Shown: piece by piece, positions 7,062 through 32,220 of the stretch | How the letters are laid out: each line of letters opens with the position of its first letter | Numbering within the stretch: position 1 is the stretch's first letter | Virus record (IMG/VR): IMGVR_UViG_3300035698_015959 | Span: 1-34,860 of that record | DNA from: a virus | DNA length: 34,860 nt | Strand: one strand, 5' to 3' | Program-made: the position numbers and the translations under genes | Notes under the pieces: model-generated | What the model was told of the DNA's origin: nothing | Databases searched by the model: none | What the model saw: only the letters and a program-made list of their open reading frames with translations

Positions 7062-7126
7062 CGCAAAACGGTACCTGTGTCATATACTAACTCTATGCCC
7101 AAATGTGGTTAACAATGGAGTTAGAA

Positions 7127-8095
7127 ATGAAGAAAGAGTTCAAGGGGCACGCCAATGAAGGTGGCGTGTACCAAATCACAAATATAATCAACGGAAAAAA
7201 GTACGTTGGTTCTGCTAAAACATTCAAGACTAGAGCAGCTGGCCACGCCAGCTCGTTAAAGAACGGCAAACACCAAAACAAGCATCTGCAAGCAAGCTTC
7301 GACAAGCATGGCGCAGATGCTTTTTTGTTTGAGGTAATTGAAGTTGTTCCTGGCGACAGAGTCGCCAGGACAACAAGGGAGCAAGAGTTAATTGACGAAC
7401 AACTTGGGAGTTGGGAGTCGTGCTTCAATTTCAAAAAGAAAACGGTCTGCAAGGAAGGCCCGTGGTCAAAAACTCCGACGGAAACTCGGAAGAAAATATC
7501 CGAGTCAAGTAGGAAGATGTGGCAAAACGATATTTTCAAAAAAAGAACCAGTAAGGCAATTAGCAAAGCTTTGCAAACACCAGAATCTAAAAAGTGTCGT
7601 TCAGAGAATTCCAAGGAAATGTGGCGCAAGCCTTCACACAGACAAAAACTTGCAAAAGTAATGAGAAAACATTCGACCAAACAAAAACTGACCTTGGCTA
7701 AGCATAGAAAAACAGCAACTGCAAATTCACGCAAAAAACGTGTAAAACATTATGGAAAAATTCTTGATCCGCTGGGCAGGATTCACGACGTAACAAACCT
7801 GGAAGAGTTTGCACGGAAGCACAATCTCGACCGATGCAACTTGCAGAAGGTATTTGAAGGCAGACATCCGTCATGCAAGGGTTGGCGAAAGTACGCTTTA
7901 GAACTTTGTGGGCTGCCGTACATACGGAACTTGAGCCATCAGGCAAAAGACTTTTTGATTGTCGACCCTCGTGGAAACACACACAAAGAAACAAACATCG
8001 CCCGCTTCGCCGCAAAACATGGGCTCAATAAAGAAAATTTGGCAGCGGTAATAAGAGGCACTCGCAAGTCCCACAAAGGATGGACGCATGTTTAA
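7127..8095 (+). CDS. GIY-YIG homing endonuclease
   Basis: The N-terminal nuclease domain has GVYQITN, then KKYVGSA about ten residues later, a downstream Arg (KTR) and a Glu in REQELIDEQ, the GIY-YIG catalytic set. The middle is a basic linker with TRKKISES-type helices, similar to NUMOD3 DNA-binding repeats. The C-terminus has two related repeats, each running from a DP-GR or DP-RG turn through an A-KH-L helix to a KGW ending, similar to NUMOD1-like DNA readers. I chose ATG 7127 because GGAG precedes it by 6 bases; ATGs at 7103 and 7115 are possible. A TATACT hexamer at 7084 may act as a promoter -10. It sits exactly between two sheath paralogues, a typical homing site. Confidence 0.85.
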   Translation: MKKEFKGHANEGGVYQITNIINGKKYVGSAKTFKTRAAGHASSLKNGKHQNKHLQASFDKHGADAFLFEVIEVVPGDRVARTTREQELIDEQLGSWESCFNFKKKTVCKEGPWSKTPTETRKKISESSRKMWQNDIFKKRTSKAISKALQTPESKKCRSENSKEMWRKPSHRQKLAKVMRKHSTKQKLTLAKHRKTATANSRKKRVKHYGKILDPLGRIHDVTNLEEFARKHNLDRCNLQKVFEGRHPSCKGWRKYALELCGLPYIRNLSHQAKDFLIVDPRGNTHKETNIARFAAKHGLNKENLAAVIRGTRKSHKGWTHV

Positions 8096-11228: not shown

Positions 11229-12482
11229 GTGAAGCTCACGAAAGTTCAACTAAAAGAGATGATTCGTCAGGCTGTTAGGCAACAGCTTGGCGAGTCGCCA
11301 ATTGAAGAAACAGTATATATTGGTTCAATCAAAAAGGGCATGGCGGCTGGAAAGGCTGCTGCGAACCGTGTTGATAGTCCTTCATACCGTTCTTCAAAAG
11401 GCGAAACCTGGGAAGAAGAGCTTGGCCGCATAGACAAGCAAGCTAAACTTAAAAGGGACATGGAACGACGATTTGCCTCCGCAGGTAAGTACTGGAAGAA
11501 GGTATTTGGTGAGGAGGCTAATGTTTACTACATGCAAGCCCAAATTGATGTCGGCGGCCCATTTAGGGTGAATATCAAACTAGAAGAACGTGATTCTTTT
11601 GCCGAACAAATCTTTGTAGTGAGCCTACTGAAAACAACCCAGACACTTGAAACGAAAGACTTCGGCATCGGCATCGGGGCCAAAGAAAATATCGCCCGCT
11701 ACGTCAAGAAAATGAAGAAGAAGTTTCAACAGGGTGGACTAAGCGAAGGTCATATGGCTAAAAGCCTAAGGCTTATACTTAGAGAAAATGAAAACAGACC
11801 TATGAAAGTTAACAAAAGACAGTTACAAGAGATGGTTCGTTTGGCTATCCGCAAGCAGCTAAACGAGCGCCACGGCGTTTATTCCCCTGATGGCGGAATG
11901 TCTCAGAATGATATCGCAATCCACTTGGAAAAAGAACGTGAAAAGAAGCGTAAAAGTGATGACGTCAACAAGAAACGCCAGGCTACCAAGAAATCTGCTC
12001 GGGGCATGGAACTTGAATGCGGTCCAGACATGGACCGTAGGCCCGACAGGAATAAAGAACCACGTAAGCTATCGGATTTATTTGCAGACGGCGACAGAGA
12101 GCTAGGAGAGGCCATGTACGAGCAATCTGGTGGTACCATGGATGACTTCTGTTCAGCTTATATTGAAGCAGCTCTTTGGAGCAGCACAGATGATTCAAGT
12201 GGCCAGCCTTTAGACGTGAACTACGAATCTGCTGACATCTCCGAAGAGACTCTTAGAAAAATGCAATCTGATTGCGACAAGTTTCAGGAGCTTGCAGGTG
12301 AAATGATTGATGGGCGTGAAGAGAGGGCTGGACACGATTTCTGGCTAACCCGCAATGGACATGGTTCTGGCTTTGCTGATGGACAGTGGCCTGAATACGA
12401 AAAAGAGTTAACAGAACTTTCAAAAAAGTTTGGTGAGACATGGCTCATCGTTGGCGATAATAATGAAATTGAAGGAATGTAA
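11229..12482 (+). CDS. Tagged putative internal virion protein with two tag A copies, 417 aa
   Basis: The start is GTG with AAGGA upstream, chosen because it begins the tag KLTKVQLKEMIRQAV ending QLGE. A second copy (KVNKRQLQEMVRLAI ending QLNE) begins at residue 192 with its own ATG at 11802, so the protein looks like two tagged modules joined in one frame. A separate start at 11802 cannot be excluded. Between them lies an alpha/beta domain of unknown family. The second half is acidic with several Cys and Trp and resembles nothing I recognise. The tag forms an amphipathic helix ending in LxE, like a T4 capsid-targeting peptide with its gp21 cleavage site. Location between tail sheath and scaffold genes fits a packaged head protein. 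Function otherwise unknown. Confidence 0.7.
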   Translation: MKLTKVQLKEMIRQAVRQQLGESPIEETVYIGSIKKGMAAGKAAANRVDSPSYRSSKGETWEEELGRIDKQAKLKRDMERRFASAGKYWKKVFGEEANVYYMQAQIDVGGPFRVNIKLEERDSFAEQIFVVSLLKTTQTLETKDFGIGIGAKENIARYVKKMKKKFQQGGLSEGHMAKSLRLILRENENRPMKVNKRQLQEMVRLAIRKQLNERHGVYSPDGGMSQNDIAIHLEKEREKKRKSDDVNKKRQATKKSARGMELECGPDMDRRPDRNKEPRKLSDLFADGDRELGEAMYEQSGGTMDDFCSAYIEAALWSSTDDSSGQPLDVNYESADISEETLRKMQSDCDKFQELAGEMIDGREERAGHDFWLTRNGHGSGFADGQWPEYEKELTELSKKFGETWLIVGDNNEIEGM

Positions 12483-12483
12483 A

Positions 12484-13152
12484 ATGAATTTTGAACTAAT
12501 ATTGAAAGAGGGATTTGACACTGATGATTCGGTTGTCAGGGAGCTGAAGATCTTCATCGACAATGATGGTGAGCTTTACCGTCAGCGCACAATGCCCATT
12601 ATGAAGAACCTCGCACGAAAAATGCGAAAGGGCAACTACGATCCAAGCAAGGCAACCAAACTCTGGATGTACCTTGTAAATGATGGTGCCAAAAAATACG
12701 CCAAGGAATTTGGCGGCGATCCTAAGGGCTGGCATGAAATGTTCCCAAAGGCAATTCGTATGGCTGTAGCTCAAGAACTAGCTGATGAATTTCAAAGTGA
12801 GGTTGACGCTGGCGGGTACGATGTTGAGGAACTCTCAATGAGGGAAAACAAAGTTGTTCGTGTCTCAAAAAGTCAACTAAGAGAAATGGTCCGCAAGACT
12901 ATCCGCAAACAGCTCAATGAGGCTGCTGGGTCCCGTGAGTGGGACTTACTTGAGAAAATTCGTGATGGTGGTGCAGATGACACCTCCATCCTTGAGGAAC
13001 TCATGAGAGCCATGTCTTCAGTCGAAGCTACTCAAAACCTTGAGTGGATTGCACAAATGTGGGATGTCGAACTTGAGGGTGATGATGATGGCGAAGATGA
13101 AGCTTGGATGGAAGACGACGACCTTGATGAGATCGTTGCTCCAGATTGGTAG
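12484..13152 (+). CDS. Putative internal virion protein with internal tag A, 222 aa
   Basis: The ATG follows the previous stop by one base. The N-terminus MNFELILKEGF is a short hydrophobic helix with an LKE site, like T4 capsid-targeting peptides. Residues 20-120 are a helical domain with WMYLVNDGAKKYAKEFGG that I have seen in small phage proteins but cannot name. A tag A copy (RVSKSQLREMVRKTIRKQLNE) occupies residues 126-146, and a very acidic tail follows. The arrangement suggests fusion of one cargo domain with a second tagged unit. Neighbours on both sides carry the same tag and are separated by 1 and 6 bases, so they are co-transcribed. Confidence 0.7.
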   Translation: MNFELILKEGFDTDDSVVRELKIFIDNDGELYRQRTMPIMKNLARKMRKGNYDPSKATKLWMYLVNDGAKKYAKEFGGDPKGWHEMFPKAIRMAVAQELADEFQSEVDAGGYDVEELSMRENKVVRVSKSQLREMVRKTIRKQLNEAAGSREWDLLEKIRDGGADDTSILEELMRAMSSVEATQNLEWIAQMWDVELEGDDDGEDEAWMEDDDLDEIVAPDW

Positions 13153-13158
13153 GAAAAT

Positions 13159-13593
13159 ATGAAAGTTGCTAAAAATCAACTTATACGAATGATTCGTGAG
13201 GCAGTTCGAGAGCAGCTAGACCCAAACGATTCAGATGACAGGGGCGCTGTCCTGGCCAACTTACGCAGACGGCTTGATGGAGGTTCGAAGCTGCATGCTA
13301 TCGGAGACGGGACATCGGACAACATTTACGGGCTTGTGAAGGCCAACTCCTCTGATGAGGCTAGGACAGTAGCTCGTGAGGCTGGACTTGATGATTATGC
13401 AGTTGACGAGGTCAACAGCAACGTAGTCAGACGTCTTGAGAAGCAAGCTGCAAGCTATGCCAGGCGTCGCCAAGAGAGAAAAGCTGCCAAGTATACCAAA
13501 GATGCCAAATTAATTCAGGGGTTCTTGGATTCTGACAAAAACACCATTGACCTCGGCAACAGACCAATCATGACGGTTGACCTTGATCTCTGA
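13159..13593 (+). CDS. Tagged putative internal virion protein, 144 aa
   Basis: The protein begins with tag A (KVAKNQLIRMIREAVREQLD), but here the last position is Pro instead of Glu. The usual LxE is therefore lost and this copy may not be cleaved at that point. The rest is a charged helical protein with an SDEARTVAREAGLDDY segment and a Lys/Arg-rich middle. No known domain, signal peptide or membrane segment is visible. It follows the preceding gene by 6 bases, with GGAAAA ahead of the start. Role as packaged cargo is inferred from the tag and the neighbours. Confidence 0.7.
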   Translation: MKVAKNQLIRMIREAVREQLDPNDSDDRGAVLANLRRRLDGGSKLHAIGDGTSDNIYGLVKANSSDEARTVAREAGLDDYAVDEVNSNVVRRLEKQAASYARRRQERKAAKYTKDAKLIQGFLDSDKNTIDLGNRPIMTVDLDL

Positions 13594-13601
13594 GATTTAA
13601 T

Positions 13602-13829
13602 GTGAAACTCACTAAAACACAATTGAAAGAGATGATCAAAGAGGCTGTGCAGAGTCAGCTTGATGAATCGGGAATTCTTGAACGTCGTGTTATGAAGCTT
13701 GATCGGTTTCGTAGTGAAGTAAATCTCTCTTCATATGAGCTTCTGGAGGATATCGTTGAAATGCTTGATGAGGACATGTGGCGTCAGGTAGTTATTGGTT
13801 TAAAAGACAAGTACGGATACAAGATCTGA
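13602..13829 (+). CDS. Small tagged putative virion protein, 75 aa
   Basis: A GTG start is chosen because it begins tag A (KLTKTQLKEMIKEAV ending QLDE), nearly identical to the copy at 11229, and because ATG at 13599 runs straight into a stop. After the tag only about 50 residues remain. They form two or three helices including YELLEDIVEMLDEDMWRQVV and a C-terminal LKDKYGYKI. The size fits a small internal head peptide. No enzymatic motif is seen. Confidence 0.65.
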   Translation: MKLTKTQLKEMIKEAVQSQLDESGILERRVMKLDRFRSEVNLSSYELLEDIVEMLDEDMWRQVVIGLKDKYGYKI

Positions 13830-13848
13830 AAACGCCTTTTAGGTCCCT

Positions 13849-13856
13849 AATTTACT
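13849..13856 (+). promoter_or_regulatory. Candidate late promoter core (weak copy)
   Basis: AATTTACT lies 30 bases before the start of the next tagged gene and matches seven of eight bases of the TATTTACT core seen at 8111, 14412 and 34310. Assignment is by resemblance and placement only. Confidence 0.25.
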
Positions 13857-13886
13857 ATAGGGGAAGTCGTTGCAACCAGGAATAAG

Positions 13887-14393
13887 ATGAAACTCAACAA
13901 AACACAACTCAAAAAAATCCTCAAAGAGGTAGTACGTGAACTAGTAGACGAGGGTGCGTTTGATAACGTTATTAAAGAAAGTGTTAGTCCAAGAGCTAAT
14001 GTTGCCCGTCGACCTGCTGCAAATGACTTTGCTGCCTCGTACGGACAAAGAAGTGAACCGATGAGCAATGATCATAGTGAGAGACAACAGGATAGTCTAC
14101 GTGGTCAGGGCAGCAAGAATACACGACTCCAAGAGTTAACCCGCCGAGCAGCAGCAGAAGCATCTGGTGGTGACCCACAACAAGCTAAAATGATGGAAGC
14201 GATTTTCGCTGACACAGCCGCCAGTACACTTCAGCGGCAATTAGGTTACGAAAGCCATGGCTCAGCGGGGCTTTATAGCGGAGAACCAGACCCAGAGCAA
14301 GAACGCCAAGACATGGCAGCTTTGGACGTACTTAGTGGTGGAAAAGGCGCACAACATTGGGCTGCATTAGCATTTGGTAAGTACAATCAGTAG
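13887..14393 (+). CDS. Tagged putative internal virion protein, 168 aa
   Basis: The N-terminus is a divergent tag A copy (KLNKTQLKKILKEVVRELVDE), still ending in an LxE-like VDE. The remainder is hydrophilic and low in order: a Ser/Arg/Gln-rich middle, an Ala-rich helical part (AAAEASGGDPQQAKMMEAIFADTAAS) and a Gly-rich end. It resembles a flexible packaged protein rather than a folded enzyme. It is the last tagged gene before the head-assembly genes and is followed by a candidate late promoter. No family recognised. Confidence 0.7.
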   Translation: MKLNKTQLKKILKEVVRELVDEGAFDNVIKESVSPRANVARRPAANDFAASYGQRSEPMSNDHSERQQDSLRGQGSKNTRLQELTRRAAAEASGGDPQQAKMMEAIFADTAASTLQRQLGYESHGSAGLYSGEPDPEQERQDMAALDVLSGGKGAQHWAALAFGKYNQ

Positions 14394-14957: not shown

Positions 14958-17114
14958 ATGACAGACCTGTTTACAGAAGCGCTGAAAGACGCACAAAAGA
15001 TCCGTGAGATTGCTGAGAAGGACGCCAAAAACCGTCTTGTAGAGGCTCTTACGCCTTACATCAAGAAGGTGATCGCTAAGGAATCAGTTGGTGACAGTGA
15101 CTTCTACTTTGAGCAGGTTGAGGACGATGAGCTTGACCTAGAAGCACAGCAACCTGCGCCTGCGGCTCAGCCAGCCCCAGCCCAAGGTGCACCAGCACCA
15201 GCACCAACCACAGCTCCAACCGCAACTGTTCCAACTGCCGACCCAGCTCCTATCGAGGACCCTGGGGCGCTTGGGGATGTTGGTGTGGACGCAAGTATGC
15301 CTGATGAAGAGGGTAAAATCGTTGTTGACTTCGATGACCTTTTCGTTGATGCAGATACCGATCAAGTAACCATTACACCACCAGGTGCTGGTGGTGAAGA
15401 AATGGGTGCGGCGCCCGTGGCAGCAACTGGCGAAGAGCCTATGCTTGACCTCGCACCAGAAGGCTCTGAGCTTGCTCCTGCCCCAGCAGGCGAAGCAGTT
15501 CCTGTCGAAGGTGAAGAGGAAGACCCACTTGACCTTTCAACAGAAGCAATTACTTTCAAGGAGTATCAGAGAGTTCTATCAGATCTTTCTGAACGAGTTG
15601 ATAGAGCACTTTATTCCAATCACGTGACAGATATTACACGTGAATCGCTTAAACAAAGACTTTTCGACCTATTGGAGGCCATTGATGGCATGCGTGGTCG
15701 TGGAAGCATTTCAAACAAACAAGCTCGTCTCAACGAAAACAAGTTGGAATTTTTGTTCTTAAAACTGAAAGAGGCGAGTTTGCACAATAGTTACTCATTG
15801 AGTAGCGAAACAAAAGGTACCAACAACATGAAGACTCTCAAAGAATATGCAGCACAGCTTTTCGAGGAAGACGAAAACCTCGCAAAAGATTCGGCCAGCA
15901 CTGGCGACAGCGGCATGCCAGTAGATGACGAATACTCTGAGCATGCAGCTGACGTCTCTGGTGTTGATCCAAAACTTGGAAAACCAGAAGACATCAGGGT
16001 CCACCAGGACCGACACACTCAAGAGGCAGATGCCCTTGAGGACACTGACAATCCCGAGGAAATGCCCTGGGATGAAGGTGAGCCTGGCTTAAAAGAAAAT
16101 AGTGCAGACGCAGACACCGATGCAAACGATGACGTAGCAGAGGGTGCAGCTGGATTTGGTGACACAAGAGAAGAACCAACAGCTGAGTTTGAAGTCGACG
16201 ACGCAGAACTTGCGGAAGCAGTACGCTCCATCCGCAAAGATAGTATCAAGAAGAAATTGGCCGCTCTCCGTGAGGCAGAGGACAAGGACAAGGCATTCGA
16301 AGTTGATGCATCAGAAGATTACCCAGATCCTGGCCCAGAAGGCGGTGAGGATCCTTCACATGAGCACCTAAAGGAGGGCGCAGGAATGATGGAAATGGAC
16401 ATGGACGGCGATGAAGAGCTTGAAGTAGTTGACGACATGGCACTTGACAGTGACCTAGACGATGCAGCTGACCTCGTACTTTCCGTAGACCTCCCACCTG
16501 AGGTGGAAGCAGAACTAGCTGAACTTGGTCTTGATGACCTTGATGTTGATGTCACCCTCAACGTTAGCTCCGATGATGAGCTTGATGATGAGCTTGATGA
16601 TGAGCTTGATGATGAGGAGGACGAAGTTCTCCAGGATGACATGGAAGAAATGGCAATGGAGAGTAAGAGATCAGCACACAGAGCACGCTTTCTTGAAAAG
16701 AAGCTTCGTCGTGCCAAAAAGATTCTTGAGGCCAAGAACAGAGAACTAGCATCCGTGAAGGGCCAGTTGGTAGAGACCAACCTCTTCACCAGCAAGGCTG
16801 TGTACTACAGCAAGTTCCTTCACAGGGCTCTAAACGAAAGTGCTCTTACCAAGAAGGCTCTACAGCAAATTGTTGAGCACCTTGATAGGGGTCGTACGGT
16901 TGCCGAAACAAAGGCAATCTACAAAAAGATTGAGCGCAAGCTCAACGAACACAATAACAAAGCTTCCCGCAAATTGGGCGGATCATCCTCGACGGTTACT
17001 CGACCAGGGAGCGCAAGCTTGAATGAGAGCAAGAACTCTTCTTCAGGCGAACATCCAGAAACTCAAACAGCTTCTCGTTGGCAGGTACTTGCTGGCATTA
17101 AAAAGGGCGAGTAA
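14958..17114 (+). CDS. Prohead core / scaffold protein, T4 gp22-like, extended and acidic
   Basis: The gene lies directly upstream of the capsid gene, the place of gp22 in T4. The 718-aa product is helical at the N-terminus (FTEALKDAQKIREIAEKD), then Ala/Pro-rich (about residues 65-100), very acidic through the middle, and coiled-coil near the C-terminus (RARFLEKKLRRAKKILEAK). At residue 291 an internal Met begins MKTLKEYAAQLFEED, which looks like a T4 capsid-targeting peptide, so two ancestral core proteins may be fused here. The last residues, SRWQVLAGIKKGE, carry the tag B motif also found on accessory proteins further downstream. Scaffold function and later proteolysis are inferred from position and composition. 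No prohead protease or portal gene is in the window. Confidence 0.72.
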   Translation: MTDLFTEALKDAQKIREIAEKDAKNRLVEALTPYIKKVIAKESVGDSDFYFEQVEDDELDLEAQQPAPAAQPAPAQGAPAPAPTTAPTATVPTADPAPIEDPGALGDVGVDASMPDEEGKIVVDFDDLFVDADTDQVTITPPGAGGEEMGAAPVAATGEEPMLDLAPEGSELAPAPAGEAVPVEGEEEDPLDLSTEAITFKEYQRVLSDLSERVDRALYSNHVTDITRESLKQRLFDLLEAIDGMRGRGSISNKQARLNENKLEFLFLKLKEASLHNSYSLSSETKGTNNMKTLKEYAAQLFEEDENLAKDSASTGDSGMPVDDEYSEHAADVSGVDPKLGKPEDIRVHQDRHTQEADALEDTDNPEEMPWDEGEPGLKENSADADTDANDDVAEGAAGFGDTREEPTAEFEVDDAELAEAVRSIRKDSIKKKLAALREAEDKDKAFEVDASEDYPDPGPEGGEDPSHEHLKEGAGMMEMDMDGDEELEVVDDMALDSDLDDAADLVLSVDLPPEVEAELAELGLDDLDVDVTLNVSSDDELDDELDDELDDEEDEVLQDDMEEMAMESKRSAHRARFLEKKLRRAKKILEAKNRELASVKGQLVETNLFTSKAVYYSKFLHRALNESALTKKALQQIVEHLDRGRTVAETKAIYKKIERKLNEHNNKASRKLGGSSSTVTRPGSASLNESKNSSSGEHPETQTASRWQVLAGIKKGE
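16572..16616 (+). repeat. 12-base tandem repeat coding for DDEL
   Basis: Three exact copies of GATGATGAGCTT, followed by a partial fourth, encode consecutive Asp-Asp-Glu-Leu units inside the acidic part of the scaffold. Such a repeat can gain or lose units by slippage without changing the frame. Confidence 0.9.
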
Positions 17115-17167: not shown

Positions 17168-19090
17168 ATGAAGACTTTCACACTGTCACAGCTCGCAGAG
17201 GGCGTAAAAAGACGTTCCCTTGGCGCAGACTCACCACGTCTGTCCAAGAAATGGAACGCCACAGGACTCCTAGAGGGCCTAAAGGGAATGAACCGAGATA
17301 ACATGTCTCGTCTACTTGAGAACCAGGCAGCTGAGTTGCTCAAGGAGACAAACGCATTGTCCCTCGGAGGAGCTTCCCTAACCTCTAGCGGAAAAATCGC
17401 TGGTTTCACCAACGTCGCTTTCCCAATCGTACGCCGTGTATTCGCAGGCTTGATTGCAAATGAAGTTGTATCGGTTCAGCCAATGAGCCTACCAACTGGT
17501 TTGCTTTTCTACCTCGATTACACTTATGGTTCATCGGTTGGTGGAGACGCAGGTACATCAGCGAACCAGTTCTCAACCACATCCGTGGTTAGCCCATCAA
17601 CTTACACGAGTCAGGACTCCGTATACAACAACCCACGTGGCGTTGGCGTACGTTCAGGTTCTCTCGCAACTGGTGGCCAGTACGACCTTGCAGGTCATGG
17701 CTACTCGAAGGTGCACAAGCAGAGCCGTTGGCTCTCAGGTTCCGCAGCATCTGTCGGCTACTGGGCAACTGGTTCCGTATGGACCGCAGGCGCAGCCGTA
17801 GCTACTTCCGCAGACTTCACAGGCTTCAATGCTCGTTACGCAATGTACGATGCAAACGTTGAACGTGATCTCGCAGATAACCTTTTGGACTACTCGTTCG
17901 CATTCGTGCCAACATCTGAGTTCACTGGCAAAATCACTGGTACCGACCTTACCAACGTCAACCAAATCAGTATAACTGGTTTCGGTGAAGCTACCAACTC
18001 CGCAGTGGAGTGGGGCGAGAAGTACCAGGGTGGACGTGGCGTCCTCAACCTACGCAAGCTAACGCAGCGTGGTGATTGGGATGTTGCCAATGGTGTCTTT
18101 ACACCAAGCCCACTCGGTGGTTCACACCTTATGTTCGTTGTGCGTCTTGGTAACGCAGGTACCCCACCAGCTCCAGATGGCGCTGTGGGTAACGCAGTAA
18201 CTGCTTCCGCAGCTATCGCTGACGCACTTTCGGTCAACACTGACGGTTCAACCCTTACCATCCCAAGCTTCGAGTCTGACTTCGCAGTCGATTCTAGCCC
18301 ACGAATCCCAGAGGTTGATATCCGAATCGAATCCACCAGCGTAACGGCTCAGACCCGTAAGCTGCGTGCTCGTTGGTCGCCAGAAATGGCTCAGGACCTT
18401 ACGGCCTTCTACTCAATCGATGTAGAAGTCGAGCTTACGAACATTCTCTCTGAGATGATCACACTCGACATTGACCGTGAGATTTTGAACGACCTTCTCA
18501 CACAGGCAGGTGCTGCTAACCTCTTCTGGAGCCGTGCTCCAGGTAAGATTGTGAACAAGTTCACAGGCGCAGAGGCTCTACAGTCCAGCACCCTATCCCC
18601 AGGCCCAATGGCATTCGTAAACATCCAGGAGTGGTACCAGACTCTGCTTGAGACCATCACTGATGCTGCGAACACCATCCACCGTAAGACACTCCGTGGT
18701 TCAGGTAACTTCATGGTTACCAGCCCAGATGTCTGCACCATCCTTGAGCACCTAGTTGCATACAAGCCTTCCTACAGAGTAGACGCTGACGGACAGGTTC
18801 GTGACAACATGGTAATCGGCGCCGAGGCAGTTGGTACCCTTAACAACCGTTACACGGTTTACAAGGACCCTTACTTCCCAAGCAACAAGGTTCTAGTTGG
18901 CCTAAAGGGCAACACCTTCCTTGAATCAGGATACATCTACGCTCCGTACGTACCACTTATCCTTACTCCTGTCATCTATGCACAGGAAGATTTCACGCCA
19001 CGTAAGGGTGTCATGACTCGTTACGGCAAGAAGATGGTTAGAAATGACTTTTATGCAACCGTGACAGTTCTAGACATGGGTCTCATCTGA
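17168..19090 (+). CDS. Major capsid protein, T4 gp23-like
   Basis: The protein forms the head shell. The N-terminal 60 residues look like a removable delta domain: WNATGLLEG, then RLLENQAAELLKE, closely parallel to the gp23 KPLLEG and FENQ region. LKE at 58-60 is a good (L/I)xE site, compared with cleavage after Glu65 in T4. The following IAGFTNVAFPIVRRVFAGLIANEVVSVQPM block, then PTGLLFYLDYTYG, is the gp23 family signature. At 640 aa it is longer than gp23 (521 aa). GAGGAG precedes the start. Codon choice is strongly uniform, as expected of a very highly expressed gene. A strong terminator follows. Confidence 0.93.
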   Translation: MKTFTLSQLAEGVKRRSLGADSPRLSKKWNATGLLEGLKGMNRDNMSRLLENQAAELLKETNALSLGGASLTSSGKIAGFTNVAFPIVRRVFAGLIANEVVSVQPMSLPTGLLFYLDYTYGSSVGGDAGTSANQFSTTSVVSPSTYTSQDSVYNNPRGVGVRSGSLATGGQYDLAGHGYSKVHKQSRWLSGSAASVGYWATGSVWTAGAAVATSADFTGFNARYAMYDANVERDLADNLLDYSFAFVPTSEFTGKITGTDLTNVNQISITGFGEATNSAVEWGEKYQGGRGVLNLRKLTQRGDWDVANGVFTPSPLGGSHLMFVVRLGNAGTPPAPDGAVGNAVTASAAIADALSVNTDGSTLTIPSFESDFAVDSSPRIPEVDIRIESTSVTAQTRKLRARWSPEMAQDLTAFYSIDVEVELTNILSEMITLDIDREILNDLLTQAGAANLFWSRAPGKIVNKFTGAEALQSSTLSPGPMAFVNIQEWYQTLLETITDAANTIHRKTLRGSGNFMVTSPDVCTILEHLVAYKPSYRVDADGQVRDNMVIGAEAVGTLNNRYTVYKDPYFPSNKVLVGLKGNTFLESGYIYAPYVPLILTPVIYAQEDFTPRKGVMTRYGKKMVRNDFYATVTVLDMGLI

Positions 19091-19289: not shown

Positions 19290-20747
19290 ATGCGCTGTCA
19301 AGTCTGCAATAAGGATTTTGAATCCAAGAGAAGGTTAGCGAGCCATCTACAAAAAAAGCATAGCATGGATTCATGTACGTACACATCAAAATATTTGTGT
19401 GAGAATTCCCGAACACCTGTTTGTGCCTTTGAGGACTGCAAACAAGAACCCAGATACGTTTCTTTTACGTTCAAAAGATTTTGCAAGGAGCATTCCAAAC
19501 ATGCAATGAAAAGTGGGGGGCGCCGTGGGGGGCAAGCTCAGGCTTGGAATAAAGGGAAAACAAAATTCGACGACAAAAGAATACTCAAGCAAGCAATCTC
19601 AATGTTAGGAAACGGGAATCACTTTTATGGCCAACAACACTCTAACCAAACGATTGAAACACTAAAGATTAGTTCGAAAATTACCCAGGGTGAATTCAAA
19701 GCCAGGCTAAAGGCTAGAGAGTCGGATTTCATCATCTCAACAAATTTTTCATACGAAGAATATGAATCTAGGCAATACCAAAAATTGCCAGTTGAGTGTA
19801 CCAGGTGTCACCGCACCTCCTACAAAACGCTTCAGTCCCTAGAGCGTGGAACCCTTTGTAAGTTTTGCTACCCTTTCACAGTCTCAAGAGGCGAACTAGA
19901 ACTTGGCAATTACGTTGAGTCTAAAATTGACCATGACGTTGTTAGAAACGATCGGACTGTCATTGCACCTTATGAGCTGGATATTTATGTCCCTAAATTG
20001 CACTTGGCAATTGAATACCACGGAGTTTATTGGCATATGGACAAAGGCCAGCCTGGGTTTGACAAGAAGCTCCACTACAAGAAGCACCTGCACGCTAAAA
20101 ACAAAGGAATCAAACTTCTTCAATTTTACTCTAATCAATGGGAGCAACAATCCGAGCTTGTAAAGTCAATGATTGATAACCAACTGGGACTTAATGCGAA
20201 AAAGGTGGGAGCCAGGACCTTGCAAATAACAATGCTTGATTCGAAAGCAGCAAAAGCTTTTTTCACTAAAAATCATTTACACGGATGGTGCAGAGCAAAA
20301 GCCACGTTTGCCCTAACTGACAAAGAAACAAACGAAGTACTTTCTGCGCTGTCGCTACGAAGCCCGATGCATAAGGTCTACAAAGATTCTTTGGAAATTG
20401 CCAGGTTCGCTACTAGGATGAACACTACGGTAGTAGGAGGCTTTAGTAAACTACTGTCATGTGTCAAAAAGTATACTAAGAGTCAACAGCTCCATACTAT
20501 CATCTCGTACGCAGACTTATTACATGGGACAGGCCGAGTTTACGATTTAGCCGGCTTTGACTATGTCAAACACACGGGTATCAATTATTGGTACACAGAC
20601 GGCGTTCAGCTCTTCAACCGTTTCAGGTATAAAGCCGAGGCAAACAAGAGTGAGAAGGAAGTTGCTAAAGCACAGAACGTCCAGCGTATATACGGATGTG
20701 GTAACTCACTTTACAAACTAGCTCTAAAGGTAGAAGACGATGCATGA
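19290..20747 (+). CDS. EDxHD (Vsr-like) homing endonuclease with zinc fingers
   Basis: The N-terminus has a C2H2 finger (CQVCNKDF...HLQKKH, residues 3-24) and a second Cys/His set (CAFEDC, CKEH). A Cys4 ribbon follows at 170-193 (CTRC, CKFC). The nuclease core has YELDIYVPKLHLAIEYHGVYWH (residues 228-249), giving E-x-D, then E-x-x-G and His, the signature of the EDxHD family typified by I-Bth0305I and related to Vsr nucleases. The C-terminal 180 residues hold a domain with the words KNHLHGW, LSLRSP and IARFATR, often found attached to these phage nucleases. The gene follows the capsid terminator and overlaps the next gene by 8 bases. It is probably a mobile homing element. Confidence 0.8.
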   Translation: MRCQVCNKDFESKRRLASHLQKKHSMDSCTYTSKYLCENSRTPVCAFEDCKQEPRYVSFTFKRFCKEHSKHAMKSGGRRGGQAQAWNKGKTKFDDKRILKQAISMLGNGNHFYGQQHSNQTIETLKISSKITQGEFKARLKARESDFIISTNFSYEEYESRQYQKLPVECTRCHRTSYKTLQSLERGTLCKFCYPFTVSRGELELGNYVESKIDHDVVRNDRTVIAPYELDIYVPKLHLAIEYHGVYWHMDKGQPGFDKKLHYKKHLHAKNKGIKLLQFYSNQWEQQSELVKSMIDNQLGLNAKKVGARTLQITMLDSKAAKAFFTKNHLHGWCRAKATFALTDKETNEVLSALSLRSPMHKVYKDSLEIARFATRMNTTVVGGFSKLLSCVKKYTKSQQLHTIISYADLLHGTGRVYDLAGFDYVKHTGINYWYTDGVQLFNRFRYKAEANKSEKEVAKAQNVQRIYGCGNSLYKLALKVEDDA

Positions 20748-23156: not shown

Positions 23157-24664
23157 ATGTCTATACGCCTATACCACGGCTCGCCGAACAAGTTTGAGAG
23201 CTTTACCCAAAGAGATTGGGTGGCATTTGATGGTGCTACCGTTCAATCCCTATTTGGCTGACTCCTGACAGGAGTTTCGCAGCTATCAATGCAGGTCCAC
23301 GTGGATGGATATACGAAGTTGAGGCCAGCCCTAAAAAAACATTTCCTGACCAAGAACTCCGAATAAAGGATGGGCACCACATAATCCCGTCTCCTTACGG
23401 AGAGAAACTAGTTGAGGACATGCTTTCCAGAGGAATGTTTGACCTCGGCGAAGATGATTGGTACGAAGCGGAAGAGCTACTCAAAGCTATAGATCTTTTA
23501 AACTATGATGTGTTGGAGACTGGTGACTTTATTGAGTGGCTGAAGGATAACGGGTACGATTCGTTTAACGTAAGAGGGCCTGGCCCAACTAACATAGCAA
23601 TGCTTGACAGGGTAAGTGTTAAAATCCTAGGTAGAAAACCCGTGGGAAATCTCAAGGAAGCCAACGTGAAGCAGTTCTACGGAAGTAACTTTCAGCACAC
23701 GCTAAAGGATTACATGCAAGGCGAAGAAAGTGGACTTGCAACACATGGGGTTCATTACTCCGACTTCAAAAAATGGGGCGTTGCTCCTGGTGGAGGTTAC
23801 TTCCCAAGAGGTGTGTACTTCTATTAACTCTCATCCGATTGCGATGCAGGCATTGGCAATGGCTTTGCCACTAAACGCCAGTGGGCCAACGTTGCTCGGA
23901 TTGATAACTCCAAAATGGTTATATTGAAGCAGGGTCACGCCAGTGACTTCAATGAAGCCAGGCTCAAGAGAAGTGTTGAACAGCTTCAGGCGGCTTATGG
24001 GGAATTGCCAGGGTTGAATCCGCCAGGCAACAAGTTCAAGAACATTGCTGAGCACAACCCTGCCTTCGCCCACCTAGGAGACGTCCTATCTACGATGGAA
24101 GCAGAAGGTCTTGGCAGTTTCAACAAGTTGCTTCATGTTGCTGGTTATGATGGGATTGTTGATTATGATGGCTGGCTACTTCCTGTAGAAAGCTGCCAAG
24201 GAGTTCAGACGTGGCCAGGTGGCGCAAATCTTGTCACTTCGATTCAAACGCCGAGGAAAAGCCCAGATAAAGAAGAACGTCTGGTAACCATGTTGAGTAG
24301 ACTCAAACACCAATCTAATGGAAGTTTGAAACTCACGAGAAATGAAATTGCGCAAGTGGTTCAGATGCTCCCGAAGTTCTGGCACCAATGGGATATTTCG
24401 GACTCCAAATCAGACCTGTATGGTTGGCTGTTACAGAAGCTAGACTTTAGTCACGCAGATTCTCTTCGTTGGCTAGAAGACAAGAGTTACTTTGGTGATA
24501 GGTTCTACATGGAGCTTGAGCGGAATCCAACGACACCTAAGAAGTACTGGGACCAACTACTTCACTCGGCTGATCATGGAGCAAGGCTAACTGCGCAAGG
24601 TATGCTCGGGGAATCCTTTTCTCGGAAGCGTTGGCAGCAACTTGCGGGAATAGAGGCTATCTAA
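23157..24664 (+). pseudogene. Broken protein with two ADP-ribosyltransferase-like domains and C-terminal tag B
   Basis: The reading begins MSIRLYHGSPNKF and must change frame once between about 23231 and 23246 to continue as IPIWLTPDRSFAAI, a layout common to ADP-ribosyltransferase-like folds (YHG-, then a (L/I)(W/F)LTPD segment, then a strand WIYEVEA). The first domain ends near DSFNVRGPGPTNIAMLD. A second domain (GGGYFPRGVYFY and onward) is interrupted by one in-frame TAA at 23825, after which protein-like sequence continues to 24664. The last residues RKRWQQLAGIEAI are tag B. With one frameshift and one nonsense codon this is either a recently broken cargo gene or a gene with sequence errors. 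Open pieces are 23157-23258, 23246-23827 and 23828-24664. Catalytic residues cannot be assigned with confidence. Confidence 0.6.
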
Positions 24665-24901: not shown

Positions 24902-25058
24902 AAGAAAACCTCTTTGAATCGCCCAGGGCTTCTTTGACCATTTCTTTGATTGTAGAGCCAAGAAGTCGCCTCGCTTCCTTCATAGCGGGTTGCTCGACAT
25001 GAACCTTGCCCTTGATCACAGGCGGCTTTGTGCCATACTTCCATATAAACCAAGTTAC
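24894..25058 (-). pseudogene. 3' remnant of a second DUF7178-like gene
   Basis: Read on the minus strand, this stretch is open and encodes VTWFIWKYGTKPPVIKGK and onward to ARRLLGSTIKEMVKEALGD, then ends. It matches the C-terminus of the intact minus-strand gene at 25842-26681. Homology stops abruptly at 25058, 30 bases before the HNH gene start. It is the leftover end of a paralogue whose front part is missing. Confidence 0.8.
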
Positions 25059-25087: not shown

Positions 25088-25861
25088 ATGGGAAAACTCG
25101 GCAGAAAACGTAAACCACATCGATTCATGGGTGTGATTGAACAAAAACATTGTTCAAGGTGTAATAAATGGTGTGCTCTAAAATTATTTCACAAATCAAA
25201 ACAGGCTTGGGATGGTTTGCACAATATATGCAAATCATGCGGCAATGAAAATTCTAGGTTGTCTCATGAGAGAAATGCAAAGAACATAAACCACAAACGT
25301 CGGAATGGAAAGCATCACACCTTTAAAGGCATTAAGCCGCATGTGTTTATTGGATTAACTGAACATAAGGAATGCTACAGTTGCAAGAAAATAGCTATGC
25401 TAAACGAATTCAATAAATGCTCAAGAAATTGGGACCTTTTAACAGATTTGTGTAGGACTTGTAACAAAGCTAAATCCAAAGCATACTACCAGGCCAACAA
25501 AGAAAAAATACGCACTAAGAGCCTTGAGTGGCAACGTAAAAAGATGATATCTGACCCCATGTTTCGTTTGGTTAGGAATCTAAGGAACAGGGTGTGGAGC
25601 ACAATAAAACGTGGTACTAAGTCAGCAAGAACTCTTGAATTGCTAGGATGTGACATCCTAACCCTTAAAAAATCGTTAGAGGCCAACTTTCTTCTCGGGA
25701 TGACATGGGAAAATTATGGTCAAAGATGGCATGTTGATCATATTATTCCATGCGCAAAATTTGACTTATCTCTAGCATCAGAACAAAGAACATGTTTCAA
25801 TTACACGAACCTTCAGCCTCTTTGGGCTGAAGATAATTTGGCTAAAGGTTCAAAAGTTTAG
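25088..25861 (+). CDS. HNH homing endonuclease
   Basis: Two zinc-ribbon units (CSRC and CKSC at residues 22-51; CYSC and CRTC at 96-125) precede a classical HNH domain: WHVDHII at 214-220, then FNYTNLQPLWAEDNLAKG at 237-254. The middle is basic and helical, suited to DNA binding. The last 20 bases overlap the 3' end of the convergent DUF7178-like gene. On the other side sits a 117-base partial copy of that same gene, so the enzyme gene lies between two related 3' ends. No tag is present, in keeping with a mobile gene rather than a virion protein. Confidence 0.88.
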   Translation: MGKLGRKRKPHRFMGVIEQKHCSRCNKWCALKLFHKSKQAWDGLHNICKSCGNENSRLSHERNAKNINHKRRNGKHHTFKGIKPHVFIGLTEHKECYSCKKIAMLNEFNKCSRNWDLLTDLCRTCNKAKSKAYYQANKEKIRTKSLEWQRKKMISDPMFRLVRNLRNRVWSTIKRGTKSARTLELLGCDILTLKKSLEANFLLGMTWENYGQRWHVDHIIPCAKFDLSLASEQRTCFNYTNLQPLWAEDNLAKGSKV

Positions 25862-26681
25862 CAACTTCTTCTTTGATTATAAAGCCAAGAAGTCGCCTCG
25901 CTTCCTTCATGGCAGGTTGTTCGACATGAACCTTACCTTTGATCTTCGGGGGCTTTGTGACATACTTCCATATAAACCAAGTTACAGCCTGAACCTGTTG
26001 TGGGGTAAGCCCTACGAGGTCAGCAACTTTTCTGTAATCATAGATGATGGCTTTACGTTCATTTTTGTTTGGGCTCTTCATGTTTTTGAGTGGCGTTTTG
26101 ATGCCTCTCCAAACATTGATGGCGTGTCCATCAAGAACGAGTTCACGTTCAACCCTATCTGGATTTTCGAGGGAGTGAAAGAACACAGAGACCTTAGGCC
26201 CCTTGACAATGCTTAGGTCGCCAGTCTCAAGGATCTTCATGGCCTTATTCTGGTTGGTCTTGTATGCGGGAATCTTGTCCCAAAACTGGTAACCTTCTGC
26301 GCCACCTAGATGCATCCAATTATCGAGGATACGTGAGGCAGCGAGTAGGTTCATCTTCCAACCTAGATTTGGACTCAAGACTGCACAGACGGCTGCTGCA
26401 ACAGATGTGTCGATACCATACTTGCTTGCAAGTTCAGAGACGTGACCGTGAGCATATTGATACCAGTTGCTCCAGTAGTCAATCTCTTCCTTAGACGCTT
26501 TCTTGAGAGTCGCCAAAATATTGTGGTAACCCTCGTTTTTGAAGAGGTTCATTGTCCCGTGAGGAATTTTCTTCCTGGTGGGTTCGTTCATGACGTAGTC
26601 AAGGCCAAGAGCCTTTTCGCCGTAGTCTTCCTCATCTTGTTCGTTGAGGAGCGATTCTAAAAGTTGGTCAAGTGACATCAT
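25842..26681 (-). CDS. DUF7178-like phage protein with short N-terminal tag
   Basis: The frame is open further upstream, but ATG at 26681 (or 26678) is the sensible start because it begins MSLDQLLESLLNEQ, a short helix with LNE like the cargo peptides. The body matches what I remember of DUF7178: VAAAVCAVLSPNLGW, then NQNKAMKIL, GPKVSVFF, LDGHAINVWRG and LTPQQVQAVTWFIW. The function is unknown; the helical layout loosely recalls DNA glycosylases. The C-terminal IIKEEVAKLLNL is again an amphipathic helix. It is convergent with the HNH gene and divergent from the ParB-like gene at 26751. Confidence 0.7.
   Translation of the reverse strand: MMSLDQLLESLLNEQDEEDYGEKALGLDYVMNEPTRKKIPHGTMNLFKNEGYHNILATLKKASKEEIDYWSNWYQYAHGHVSELASKYGIDTSVAAAVCAVLSPNLGWKMNLLAASRILDNWMHLGGAEGYQFWDKIPAYKTNQNKAMKILETGDLSIVKGPKVSVFFHSLENPDRVERELVLDGHAINVWRGIKTPLKNMKSPNKNERKAIIYDYRKVADLVGLTPQQVQAVTWFIWKYVTKPPKIKGKVHVEQPAMKEARRLLGFIIKEEVAKLLNL
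25869..25985. repeat. 117-base direct repeat of 24942-25058
   Basis: This stretch and 24942-25058 align without gaps over 117 bases with about 12 mismatches counted by eye. Both encode the same part of the DUF7178-like C-terminus on the minus strand. The two copies flank the HNH gene and could recombine to delete it. Confidence 0.9.
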
Positions 26682-26750: not shown

Positions 26751-27098
26751 ATGCTGACTAGAACCGCAAAAATTCCAAATGTCACTGTGCACCCTGATAG
26801 TGACTGGCCAGGCTATATTGGGATTCAAGGCGGACGTGCGGGCGCATGGGCTGGCGAAGTGCATACGACACAAAAGTCTGTAGACTCAGAAAAAATTGGG
26901 CGTTTCGTTGAACTACTCGAAAACAACAAATCCCTCAACCCAATAGAGGTATTTCAGCACAAGCGTCAGGTTTGGATTGTGGATGGTCACCACCGTCTAG
27001 CAGCTTACCGAATTGTCGACCCAAGCAAGCCTGTGCCTGTATGGGTTTATAAAACAGGAAGAGGGGGGGGGACTACGTGCCACCTCCAAAGTTTGTAA
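26751..27098 (+). CDS. ParB-like domain protein, possibly fused to the next gene through a G tract
   Basis: The middle reads FVELLENNKSLNPIEVF, then VWIVDGHHRLAAYRI and VPVWVY, the ParB/sulfiredoxin-like core with its DGHHR motif. The start has AGGAAGG ahead of it. In the sequence as given, the frame leaves a run of nine G and ends with an unnatural tail (TTCHLQSL). One more G, or two fewer, would join it to the ADP-ribosyltransferase-like frame at 27077, giving one protein of about 430 aa. Such ParB-like domains occur in phages beside or fused to toxin-like enzymes. Role here unknown. Confidence 0.7.
   Translation: MLTRTAKIPNVTVHPDSDWPGYIGIQGGRAGAWAGEVHTTQKSVDSEKIGRFVELLENNKSLNPIEVFQHKRQVWIVDGHHRLAAYRIVDPSKPVPVWVYKTGRGGGTTCHLQSL
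27063..27071 (+). repeat. Run of nine G at a reading-frame junction
   Basis: Nine consecutive G occupy the exact place where the ParB-like frame would have to shift into the ADP-ribosyltransferase-like frame. Lengths of 7 or 10 G fuse the frames; 8 or 9 G stop shortly after. Confidence 0.95.
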
Positions 27099-28030: not shown

Positions 28031-28052
28031 GTAGAGCGAGGAATCAAGGTTG

Positions 28053-28544
28053 ATGAAGGGCCGCATTGGTTCCCACCTAGGACCTAGGGAACTGTTCCGA
28101 TACAGAGAGTTTCACAGGGACTCAAGACCAGATCTCCAGAAGTCCATGAGTGAGAAGGGGTTTGACCCAGAGCACCCAATTCAAATGATCTTTGGCAAGA
28201 ATGGTGTTGCTATGGTCGGCGAGGGTAACCATCGCTTGAAGACTGCTATCCAACTCAAAATCCCCAAAGTCCCTGTGATATTTCATTTCCGTGAATCCAT
28301 CGAAAAACATGGCGATGTCGAGAGTGAATACACACAGATAAGGGATAGAGAACTTCTCCGCAAGCAGCAAAAGGAGAGACAAACTGCGGCATACAACAGA
28401 AAACACGGCATTGATAAAGACCGTGAGCAGCGTCAGGAACGTGAGAGGCTTGACCGTGAAGCTATGTCACCTGAGGAGCGTGAACGGGCTGAGCGTGAAA
28501 AAGAAGCCTCGGTTGATGAGTTAATGAGTCTTTTCAACTACTAG
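28053..28544 (+). CDS. ParB-like domain protein with charged helical tail
   Basis: The ATG at 28053 is preferred over the adjoining TTG at 28050. Residues 28-75 read DLQKSMSEKGFDPEHPIQMI and VGEGNHRLKTAIQL, then KVPVIF, which is the ParB/sulfiredoxin-like core with the GNHR motif. The C-terminal 70 residues are an Arg/Glu-rich single helix (RQERERLDREAMSPEERERA), ending SVDELMSLFNY. It lies 22 bases after the ADP-ribosyltransferase-like gene in the same direction and is probably in the same operon. A second ParB-like protein so close to the first suggests paired roles in the payload, but activity is unknown. Confidence 0.7.
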   Translation: MKGRIGSHLGPRELFRYREFHRDSRPDLQKSMSEKGFDPEHPIQMIFGKNGVAMVGEGNHRLKTAIQLKIPKVPVIFHFRESIEKHGDVESEYTQIRDRELLRKQQKERQTAAYNRKHGIDKDREQRQERERLDREAMSPEERERAEREKEASVDELMSLFNY

Positions 28545-28561: not shown

Positions 28562-28924
28562 ATGACTACAAAAAAACGGTGGCAGAGATTAGCAGGTATC
28601 TTAACGGAAACGGAGAATGTTTCTTCCAATCTAAGGGAGTCCGTTCCTGAGGAACATGGATTCAATCAGTACCTTAACCAAAAAAACAATAAATTATCAC
28701 AAGATGAGTTCATCGGCCATCGAAACTATTTAAAAGTAGCTGCGCCTGTGATAAAAAAGATCGAACAACTTCAGGGTTCATACTTCAATAACAGAAGACG
28801 TTTCACCGCCGAAGAAGAAGAATTGCTTAATGATGCTTTGAGAGTCCTGAGAAGGAGCTTGGTGCCATTAGCACTGATAGAAAAAGAAGAAGAGGAACCA
28901 ATCGTCCTCTTAGGAGATATGTGA
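28562..28924 (+). CDS. Tag B protein of unknown function, 120 aa
   Basis: The protein starts MTTKKRWQRLAGILTETE, an unbroken tag B with an ITE-type (LTE) site, preceded by AGAGGG. The rest is helical and charged (AAPVIKKIEQLQGSYFNN; EEEELLNDALRVLRRSL) with an acidic end. No known fold is recognised. It is followed after 7 bases by the tagged Dps-like gene, so the two are co-expressed and likely share a destination. Confidence 0.72.
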   Translation: MTTKKRWQRLAGILTETENVSSNLRESVPEEHGFNQYLNQKNNKLSQDEFIGHRNYLKVAAPVIKKIEQLQGSYFNNRRRFTAEEEELLNDALRVLRRSLVPLALIEKEEEEPIVLLGDM

Positions 28925-28931
28925 GCAAATA

Positions 28932-29522
28932 ATGGTAACTACAAAAGCAAGGCTACAGAAACTAGCAGGCATCATAAACGAGTCTACAAACGAGTCACTT
29001 CAAGAGATGCTTAATGAGCAAGCTCGTGTGTTTGACGATTCAGCAAAAGAACTCATCTTTGAAGTTCCAGCCTGGCTTAGGGCCATTCACCTTTGGTTCC
29101 ATTCGGCTCACCACGTAACACGTGGACCAAACTTTGCTGGCGATCACGTGGAGCTGTATGGCAGGATCTACGAGGAAGTCCAGGCAGAAGTTGATGGTGT
29201 CATCGAGAAGGCTGTTGGTGTCACTGGAGGGCAAGACATGGCTTGTCCAATGTGCCTAACCAAGCACGCAATGAAAATCATGGAACGATACCACTCACCA
29301 GTTGAACTAAAATCTTCTGACATCGCCAAAGAAGGCCTCCGTATGATTGAGGACTATTTGATTTTTCTTAACAGAACATTCAAAGAGTTGGACGCCAAGG
29401 GTATGCTTTCTCTTGGAATGAACGACCAGTGGGCTGCCTCAGCTAACACCCATGAAACCTATGCCTACCTTCTCGGACAAAGAGTGAGAGCCCCGAACGA
29501 CACTGTTCAAAAGATGATGTAG
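28932..29522 (+). CDS. Dps-like ferritin-fold protein with N-terminal tag B
   Basis: After tag B (KARLQKLAGIINESTNE, residues 5-21) and a second short helix (LQEMLNEQ), a Dps-like four-helix domain follows. The key stretch, residues 51-100, aligns with E. coli Dps: SAHHVTRGPNF for QAHWNMRGANF, DHVEL for VHEML, and EVDGVIEKAV for HLDTMAERAV. The ferroxidase ligands are thus present as His60, His72, Asp88 and Glu92. Dps proteins form 12-subunit shells, oxidise iron and shield DNA from peroxide. A tagged copy in a phage head region suggests packaging with the genome or delivery to the host. A CPMC pair at about 105-108 is unusual for Dps. Confidence 0.75.
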   Translation: MVTTKARLQKLAGIINESTNESLQEMLNEQARVFDDSAKELIFEVPAWLRAIHLWFHSAHHVTRGPNFAGDHVELYGRIYEEVQAEVDGVIEKAVGVTGGQDMACPMCLTKHAMKIMERYHSPVELKSSDIAKEGLRMIEDYLIFLNRTFKELDAKGMLSLGMNDQWAASANTHETYAYLLGQRVRAPNDTVQKMM

Positions 29523-31023: not shown

Positions 31024-32220
31024 ATGTCGAAGCACGAGCAACTCATAGCCCTAATCGAAGAAGAAGTTAAAAGGTCGTTGAATGAGCAGGCTGCCGAGGC
31101 CCCAGCAGACGCTCCTTTTGGGAAGTACCTTTGGGCTGAACCAAGTGATGAACCCGAGTCCTTGGGTAGGAATGGAATCCGAAGAGACAAAGCTAAAGAA
31201 CCGAACACAGAGGCCGAGAACCTTTTTTTGGATGCCTATCTTAGCCTGGTTGTTGACAACAGTGGAGACAGGTTCGCTAAATTCGCTAAGTCTGTGCTCG
31301 ACCCATTAAAACAAAGTGGCCTATACAACAAGTATGTTCAACCACCGAAAGGTCCGCTGTATCGTGGAATGAAGGTTACTCCAAGAGTGGCAGCAAAACT
31401 TTTACGCCTTCCCTATTCTGAATTTATGGTTGAAACAAACAGAGCCTGGTATGTCGAAGGAGGTGGCGTAGTCCCAGTCAAGGGTGGCAAGGCCATGTCC
31501 TGGTCAACCGACCCTGAAGTTGCATTTAACTTTGCAGTTGATAGTCAATGGGGGGACGACCATGGTGTTGCAATTCTGTTTGTTGCCAGCCCTGATGACG
31601 GGGGGAATTTCTATCTAAACCCTACCGAACTTCTAAATAAGTTTGACCTTGGCCGACTATCAAGTCTTATCCCTGAAGAAAAGGAAGTGGTGTCGATTGG
31701 TCCAGTTCCCTTTAGAGAGGCTGCCTTTCTGTCATTCGAACCTGATAAGTCCAATGTGTTTGACGATTATGCATACACGAACAAATATGCCAAAAAAACA
31801 TTTCGCATACTAAAACAGCAGCTAGAGTCACGTGCCACTAACCACAAAAAGTTCCAGAGCGAAAACTTTGTGAACAAAGTCGTTAAGTCTTTGGCCGATG
31901 ATTTGGTCAAACGTGCTATCGACGAACACCCAATCTATCAACAGATACGACCTGTTGATGTCAAGAGCATAAAAAATATTGCAGTCGACGAACTCAGCGC
32001 AGTTCTTTCTAACGAGCTGATAGATTGGGGTCACAGAGGGTACGGAGAGGTTTCTGTCTTTGTTGATGAAAATGAAGGAAAAATCCAGGAAGCAGTACAT
32101 GAAACTTTATCTGAGATGGCCGAGCGCATCCTTGAACTAGCCTCAGATGATAGTAATTACAGAAAGAGTAATTTCCTCGAAGCACTTGGTGTCGCTATCA
32201 GAAACAAAAAGAAGAAGTAG
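31024..32220 (+). CDS. R-S-E class mono-ADP-ribosyltransferase with N-terminal tag
   Basis: The first 21 residues (SKHEQLIALIEEEVKRSLNE after Met) resemble tag A and end in LNE. The catalytic domain has LYRGMKV with Arg114, MSWSTDPEVAFNFA with the Ser-Trp-Ser-Thr motif at 159-162, and EKEVVSIGP with Glu219-x-Glu221. This is the Arg, STS and ExE set of arginine-specific ADP-ribosyltransferases such as T4 Alt and ModA. The C-terminal 150 residues are a separate helical domain with no known match. T4 Alt is packaged in the head and modifies host RNA polymerase after injection. This protein is a good functional counterpart, though its target is unknown. Confidence 0.8.
   Translation: MSKHEQLIALIEEEVKRSLNEQAAEAPADAPFGKYLWAEPSDEPESLGRNGIRRDKAKEPNTEAENLFLDAYLSLVVDNSGDRFAKFAKSVLDPLKQSGLYNKYVQPPKGPLYRGMKVTPRVAAKLLRLPYSEFMVETNRAWYVEGGGVVPVKGGKAMSWSTDPEVAFNFAVDSQWGDDHGVAILFVASPDDGGNFYLNPTELLNKFDLGRLSSLIPEEKEVVSIGPVPFREAAFLSFEPDKSNVFDDYAYTNKYAKKTFRILKQQLESRATNHKKFQSENFVNKVVKSLADDLVKRAIDEHPIYQQIRPVDVKSIKNIAVDELSAVLSNELIDWGHRGYGEVSVFVDENEGKIQEAVHETLSEMAERILELASDDSNYRKSNFLEALGVAIRNKKKK

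Follow-up and report, generated by a model that had tools for sequence, protein, structure and literature searches.

The closest described system is the capsid-targeting sequence (CTS) of phage T4, a peptide carried by non-homologous internal proteins, which are packaged, cut and injected (PMC9026906; PMC12373910). These internal proteins have nothing in common but their leader, and they differ in which type IV restriction enzymes they block (PMC12373910). Within the 10-residue CTS, residues 4 and 7 act mainly in targeting and residues 8 and 10 in processing; an Asp at position 10 stops processing but not targeting (PMC9026906). Here we describe tag A, a helical peptide of 22 residues present in six copies in a 34,860-base virus fragment from IMG/VR (IMGVR_UViG_3300035698_015959, entire length, hereafter the window), which belongs to a T4-like phage encoding a gp23 capsid protein. 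The features presented below suggest that tag A is a capsid-targeting propeptide, similar to the T4 CTS in action and unrelated to it in sequence; we put the probability of this at about three in four.

The positions of the six copies, first proposed from the letters of the window, were confirmed by translation and by profile scoring. Each copy scored 33.5-48.9 bits against a profile of the remaining five, compared with 15-21 bits for the best non-tag site among the 31,268 six-frame windows of the fragment. Pairwise identity is 23-73% for the peptides and only 50-68% for the DNA; thus these are diverged copies conserved as peptide and not a recent DNA repeat. Four copies open an open reading frame (ORF), and those at 11802 and 12856 lie in frame within longer ORFs. 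A short tagged product carrying the latter could also start at the ATG at 12839, which has GAGGA upstream. Translation also agrees with the original prediction in that two copies are internal, and in that five end in [LV]-x-E and one in LDP.

That prediction had also suggested searching other phage genomes with a profile of the tag, and the tag does recur, in large aquatic phages. A search with the gp23 capsid protein gave 80 related loci, on which the profile was iterated; the profile used for counting covers residues 2-19 only, without the start codon and without the L-x-E end. The iterated profile recovered 134 tags from 58 loci, and almost all of these tags open ORFs. In the pooled sets of gp23-type phage contigs, 596 distinct tag copies were counted against 4 matches of the reversed profile; a start codon coincides with the tag start in 498 of them and is at most four codons away in 48 more. 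In searches of whole records, G015, a phage of 289 kb, had about 35 tagged ORFs and LR756508, a phage of 484 kb, had at least 30; no tag A was found in Rhodothermus phage RM378, Salicola phage SCTP-2 or LR756511. A strict nucleotide pattern for the tag occurs in 115 stretches in viral contigs. In bacterial and archaeal genomes (257 Gb) the same pattern matched only 7 stretches, on 4 contigs belonging to 3 metagenome-assembled genomes. One of these contigs has 101,404 bases, as does one viral contig on the pattern list, and gp23 is present in 2 of the 3 assembled genomes; these matches therefore look like phage contigs binned with bacteria. Moreover, gp23 is present in 13 of 20 contigs found by the tag DNA pattern alone. 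Shortened tag-A leaders (MKKSQLRxIIxE..., ...ILSE) are carried by gp080, gp094 and gp114 of the cultured Flavobacterium phage immuto (NC_055915), whose host is Flavobacterium sp. LMO8. A tblastn search of annotated phages with the 22-residue consensus, a query too short for that search, gave no match. Nothing was found in the literature on the tag peptide strings or on N-terminal packaging motifs outside the T4, phiKZ and P1 work, a weak negative as such strings are rarely printed.

The end of the tag was analyzed in 77 N-terminal tags with a cargo of more than 60 residues. An [LIVMF]-x-E motif ends at residue 22 in 33 of the 77 and at residue 27 in 18, compared with about 2 of 77 at a typical later position. 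Since the profile left out the L-x-E end, this enrichment is independent of the search. The following residue is Ser, Ala, Gly or Thr in 39 of the 77, against 29% after other such motifs of the same proteins (p = 6e-6). Where a late site is lacking, conservation ends at residue 15 and I-x-E tends to fall at residues 12-14; Ala, Ser or Thr follows I-x-E14 in 34 of 62 of these tags and in 38 of 184 with a late site (one tag per cargo cluster, p = 8e-7). The window copy that ends in LDP (13159) carries this short-form end. At least one candidate site is present in 275 of the 306 cargo-nonredundant tags. Among 39 orthologs of the 13887 protein, E22 and G23 are invariant in an otherwise poorly conserved protein, although the orthologs were chosen partly by a Gly near that position, which somewhat favours the invariance of G23. 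An AlphaFold model of the 13887 protein computed with these orthologs shows the tag with confidence as a helix (residues 5-22) and disorder in the stretch after it, as would be expected of a removable leader. The view that L-x-E merely reflects helix periodicity was rejected: the motif occurs at residue 22 or 27, which is also where conservation stops, and tags without it shift to I-x-E14 followed by a small residue.

The cut in T4 gp23 follows residue 65 (PMC9958956). In our alignment, E65 of T4 gp23 (FLTE/A, the slash marking the cut) falls on an [LIV]-x-E/[STAQ] motif that is kept in every capsid protein examined from the tag-bearing clade; in one of them (L061) a Val is inserted after the Glu. 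Phage RM378, which has no tags, has KKH at the aligned position and lacks the motif. By homology, the clade protease should thus cut its capsid protein at this hydrophobic-x-Glu, the same motif as that of the tag ends. The proposal that the tags end at a prohead-protease-like site is therefore borne out at the level of the motif.

A different role for the helix, docking or localisation inside the cell (at host RNA polymerase, a membrane or a replication compartment) and unconnected with the head, appears improbable. Tag A is an amphipathic basic helix (mean moment 0.49 against 0.30 when shuffled, net charge +3.5), a type of helix capable of binding membranes or nucleic acid. This role leaves unexplained why the end motif is the same as at the capsid cut site and is preferentially followed by a small residue, and a tag end that shifts with the form of the tag, with conservation stopping there. 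It also leaves unexplained the gene neighbourhood and the double-tagged proteins. The gene order in relatives is terminase, portal, 285-amino-acid (aa) gene, protease, (137-aa gene), tagged 139-aa gene, tagged 80-100-aa gene, 164-aa gene, scaffold and gp23; the gp21-type protease gene ends 18 bases (G002) and 6 bases (G003) before a gene that is universally tagged. A gp21-type protease of the clade is also encoded at G006:101267-101875. The scaffold C-terminus is RWxxLAGI(K) in nearly all relatives examined. In the window this second common peptide, RWxxLAGI, is found at 17076-17111, 24629-24661, 28577-28600 and 28950-28973, at the N- or C-terminus of non-scaffold proteins too, and it is probably a scaffold-derived docking tag. 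Three ParB-like (DGHHRW) proteins of two phages (G014 and G015) have tag A at the N-terminus and RWxxLAGI at the C-terminus, and the 13887 protein ends in WAxLAF, similar to RWxxLAGI. Two small proteins of the window (26751-27098 and 28050-28544) have ParB-like DGHHR or GNHR motifs (weak ParBc_2 matches) that resemble those of the double-tagged proteins.

Table. Tag A copies, tagged proteins and head features of the window. The slash marks the candidate cleavage position.
Feature	Position	Strand	Description
Tag A copy 1	11229..11294	+	N-terminal, GTG start; VKLTKVQLKEMIRQAVRQQLGE/S; end QLGE/S
Tag A copy 2	11802..11867	+	Internal; MKVNKRQLQEMVRLAIRKQLNE/R; end QLNE/R; preceded by possible site LILRE/N
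Tag A copy 3	12856..12921	+	Internal; VRVSKSQLREMVRKTIRKQLNE/A; end QLNE/A
Tag A copy 4	13159..13224	+	N-terminal; MKVAKNQLIRMIREAVREQLDP; end QLDP; short-form end IRE/A at residues 12-15
Tag A copy 5	13602..13667	+	N-terminal, GTG start; VKLTKTQLKEMIKEAVQSQLDE/S; end QLDE/S
Tag A copy 6	13887..13952	+	N-terminal; MKLNKTQLKKILKEVVRELVDE/G; end LVDE/G
417-aa ORF	11229..12482	+	Tag 1, cargo 1 (about residues 23-190), tag 2 and cargo 2; two cassettes fused in frame
Cargo 2 domain (phrog_1915)	12117..12479	+	AGHDFWLTRNGHG; untagged in other phages
222-aa ORF	12484..13152	+	Contains internal tag copy 3
144-aa tagged protein	13159..13593	+	Cargo without recognised family
75-aa tagged protein	13602..13829	+	Ortholog in sister fragment (G001:14427)
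Conserved tagged protein	13887..14393	+	Predicted minor head/core protein; disordered linker between the tag helix and the C-terminal helices, which carry WAxLAF
Predicted gp23 maturation site	17339..17347	+	LKE/T, residue E60; aligned with T4 E65
Divergent tag A	31024..31086	+	One residue shorter; end SLNE/Q; on 398-aa protein
C-terminal tag-A-like helix (tentative)	25845..25910	-	MKEARRLLGFIIKEEVAKLLNL; on DUF7178 protein
Scaffold (gp22 position)	14958..17114	+	Precedes gp23; C-terminus RWQVLAGIKKGE (tag B)
Major capsid protein gp23	17168..19090	+	PF07068, E 1.6e-79

Like the T4 CTS of IPI, IPII and IPIII, tag A is a short N-terminal peptide common to otherwise unrelated small proteins of one phage of the gp20-21-22-23 type. 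Both end in hydrophobic-x-Glu followed by a small residue, and in both cases the genes lie away from the head genes. For tag A, the end motif is that of the prohead protease site in the capsid protein of the same phage, as judged from the motif, and the expected pair of a gp21-type protease and a gp23-type capsid is found, gp23 in the window and the protease beside a tagged gene in relatives. The two peptides differ in length (10 residues for the CTS, 14-27 for tag A) and in composition, tag A being strongly basic with the core K-[ILM]-T-K-x-Q-L-[KR]-x-[IM]-I. Unlike the CTS, tag A also occurs inside fused proteins and on up to about 35 genes per phage. The tag A profile scored -8.5, 4.2 and -11.1 on the leaders of IPI, IPII and IPIII, that is, no similarity, and T4 gp67, gp68 and gp20-23 contain no tag A. 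The supposed independence from the T4 leader thus held at the sequence level, and for this reason we regard tag A as CTS-like in action and do not class it as a CTS member. The head-protein propeptides of phiKZ and SPN3US resemble tag A in being N-terminal and cut after a Glu (A-x-E in SPN3US) by a gp21-related protease, and some have 20-24 residues. Unlike tag A, they mostly exceed 100 residues, and the parts of these reports that we consulted describe no tag common to dozens of cargos (PMC10052503; PMC5694885).

The cargos are highly diverse. Once the tag was removed, 567 cargos fell into 306 clusters (E 1e-3), and the 104 cargos of the core set into 86 BLAST clusters, as anticipated for a modular tag on unrelated proteins. 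Within a genome, the DNA just past the tags is 0.26-0.28 identical, which is the chance level, compared with 0.60-0.68 for the tags, in which the codons for a given residue vary. Homology (46% over 85 residues) connects the latter half of the 417-aa ORF with a sister-phage gene (G001:13337) that starts at tag 2, in keeping with the idea that internal copies mark fused cassettes, and another part of the G001:13337 protein matches the cargo after the tag at 12856. Thus cassettes have been shuffled and fused. It is very improbable that the tagged genes are diverged paralogs of a single family of which the tag is just the best-conserved part. A few of them are homologous to one another, as such a family would predict; the cargos nevertheless differ greatly in length and in predicted domains (ParB-like DGHHRW, Lar-like, phrog_1915), quite apart from the number of clusters. 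Moreover, the phrog_1915 domain of cargo 2 is found in Caulobacter, Brevundimonas, Klebsiella, Mycobacterium and other phages, and the six other phages checked carry it without a tag. Pfam gave almost nothing on 99 tagged proteins (three weak single matches), and one cargo is Lar-like (restriction alleviation) by PHROG. A small tagged protein of LR756508 (W03; 219298-219552) has a PCMYCGS motif; it is probably this Lar-like match, the PHROG output naming no member.

From these features we infer the following course of events for a capsid-targeting propeptide. The basic amphipathic helix would dock small proteins onto the prohead, at the scaffold core or the inner capsid face, during assembly. 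The gp21-type prohead protease would then cut behind hydrophobic-x-Glu, after residue 22 in the long form and probably after residue 14 in the short form. The clipped cargo would stay free inside the head and leave with the DNA at infection, and cargo genes would be swapped as tag-plus-cargo cassettes. Tag A might instead dock structural proteins of the prohead core, which would be degraded like T4 gp67 and gp68 and never delivered to the host; we consider this unlikely, though less so than the other alternatives. Those tagged genes that are best conserved (13887 and, in relatives, its neighbour) do lie between protease and scaffold, near the position of T4 gp67/gp68, and the 13887 protein, mostly disordered with conserved C-terminal helices, fits a core protein. 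Most tagged genes are nevertheless in arrays distant from the head genes (in G015 at 52-60, 88-90 and 103-112 kb, with gp23 near 172 kb), and core proteins would not need a turnover of about 300 cargo clusters, one of them Lar-like.

Several observations weigh against a capsid-targeting propeptide. The protease gene was not found in the window, where sheath genes occupy its place, nor by search in the sister fragment (G001). Many gp23 phages, including T4, RM378 and SCTP-2, have no tag A in the sequence searched, and the literature yielded no virion proteomics or cleavage data on any tagged protein. [LIVMF]-x-E motifs are frequent, being present in about 30% of comparable 13-residue stretches, and about 10% of the cargo-nonredundant tags have neither candidate site. 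The contrast between short and long forms is seen in the pattern-derived and pooled sets, and the pattern-derived contigs were chosen for the strict form of the tag; the smaller remaining set alone gives 3 of 37 against 18 of 108 (p = 0.28).

Ordinarily, only virion proteomics, applied to phages in culture, shows which proteins a phage injects. Should tag A be a packaging address, their discovery becomes a sequence search, and a second, independent tag for loading proteins into phage heads would stand beside that of T4. About 300 cargo clusters, nearly all without a recognised family, would then be candidate injected effectors (anti-defence or host-takeover) of phages mostly never cultured; because most cargos have no recognisable family, the term effector is itself an interpretation. 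We lean slightly towards a broader picture in which widespread large aquatic T4-like phages load dozens of effectors per genome by means of this one modular tag. The tag would have a short form (cut after 14) and a long form (cut after 22 or 27), some cargos would have two anchors, tag A at one end and RWxxLAGI at the other, cassettes would be shuffled and fused, and the tag would reveal the injected repertoire of each phage directly from its sequence.

A related helix and a tentative second one lie elsewhere in the window. The helix at the start of the 31024 protein, also noticed originally, lacks one residue near its start and scored 15.9 on profile positions 5-19, a value reached by none of 2.3 million reversed-profile windows. 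The accompanying label of this protein as an R-S-E ADP-ribosyltransferase was not confirmed: there is no Pfam match, and the AlphaFold model is uninformative (mean predicted local distance difference test score 34). A search for relatives gave only a 100%-identical contig. By analogy with Alt, the packaged ADP-ribosyltransferase of T4, the 31024 protein may be a head-delivered tagged enzyme. The two best non-tag sites of the leave-one-out test lie at 25910(-) and 24983(-) and represent a C-terminal peptide that is duplicated. This peptide (EQPAMKEARRLLG..IKE.V) forms the C-terminus of the DUF7178 protein at 25910(-) and persists as a short remnant at 24983(-); an HNH-like gene (25088-25861) separates the two.

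Five ORFs between the sheath and scaffold genes hold all six copies of tag A. From the reading of the ORFs, two tail-sheath-like genes lie upstream of the scaffold-position gene. By eye, five ORFs resemble homing endonucleases of the GIY-YIG or HNH type (1576-2556, 7103-8095, 19290-20747, 25088-25861 and 33296-34243), and one of these sits between the two sheath genes.

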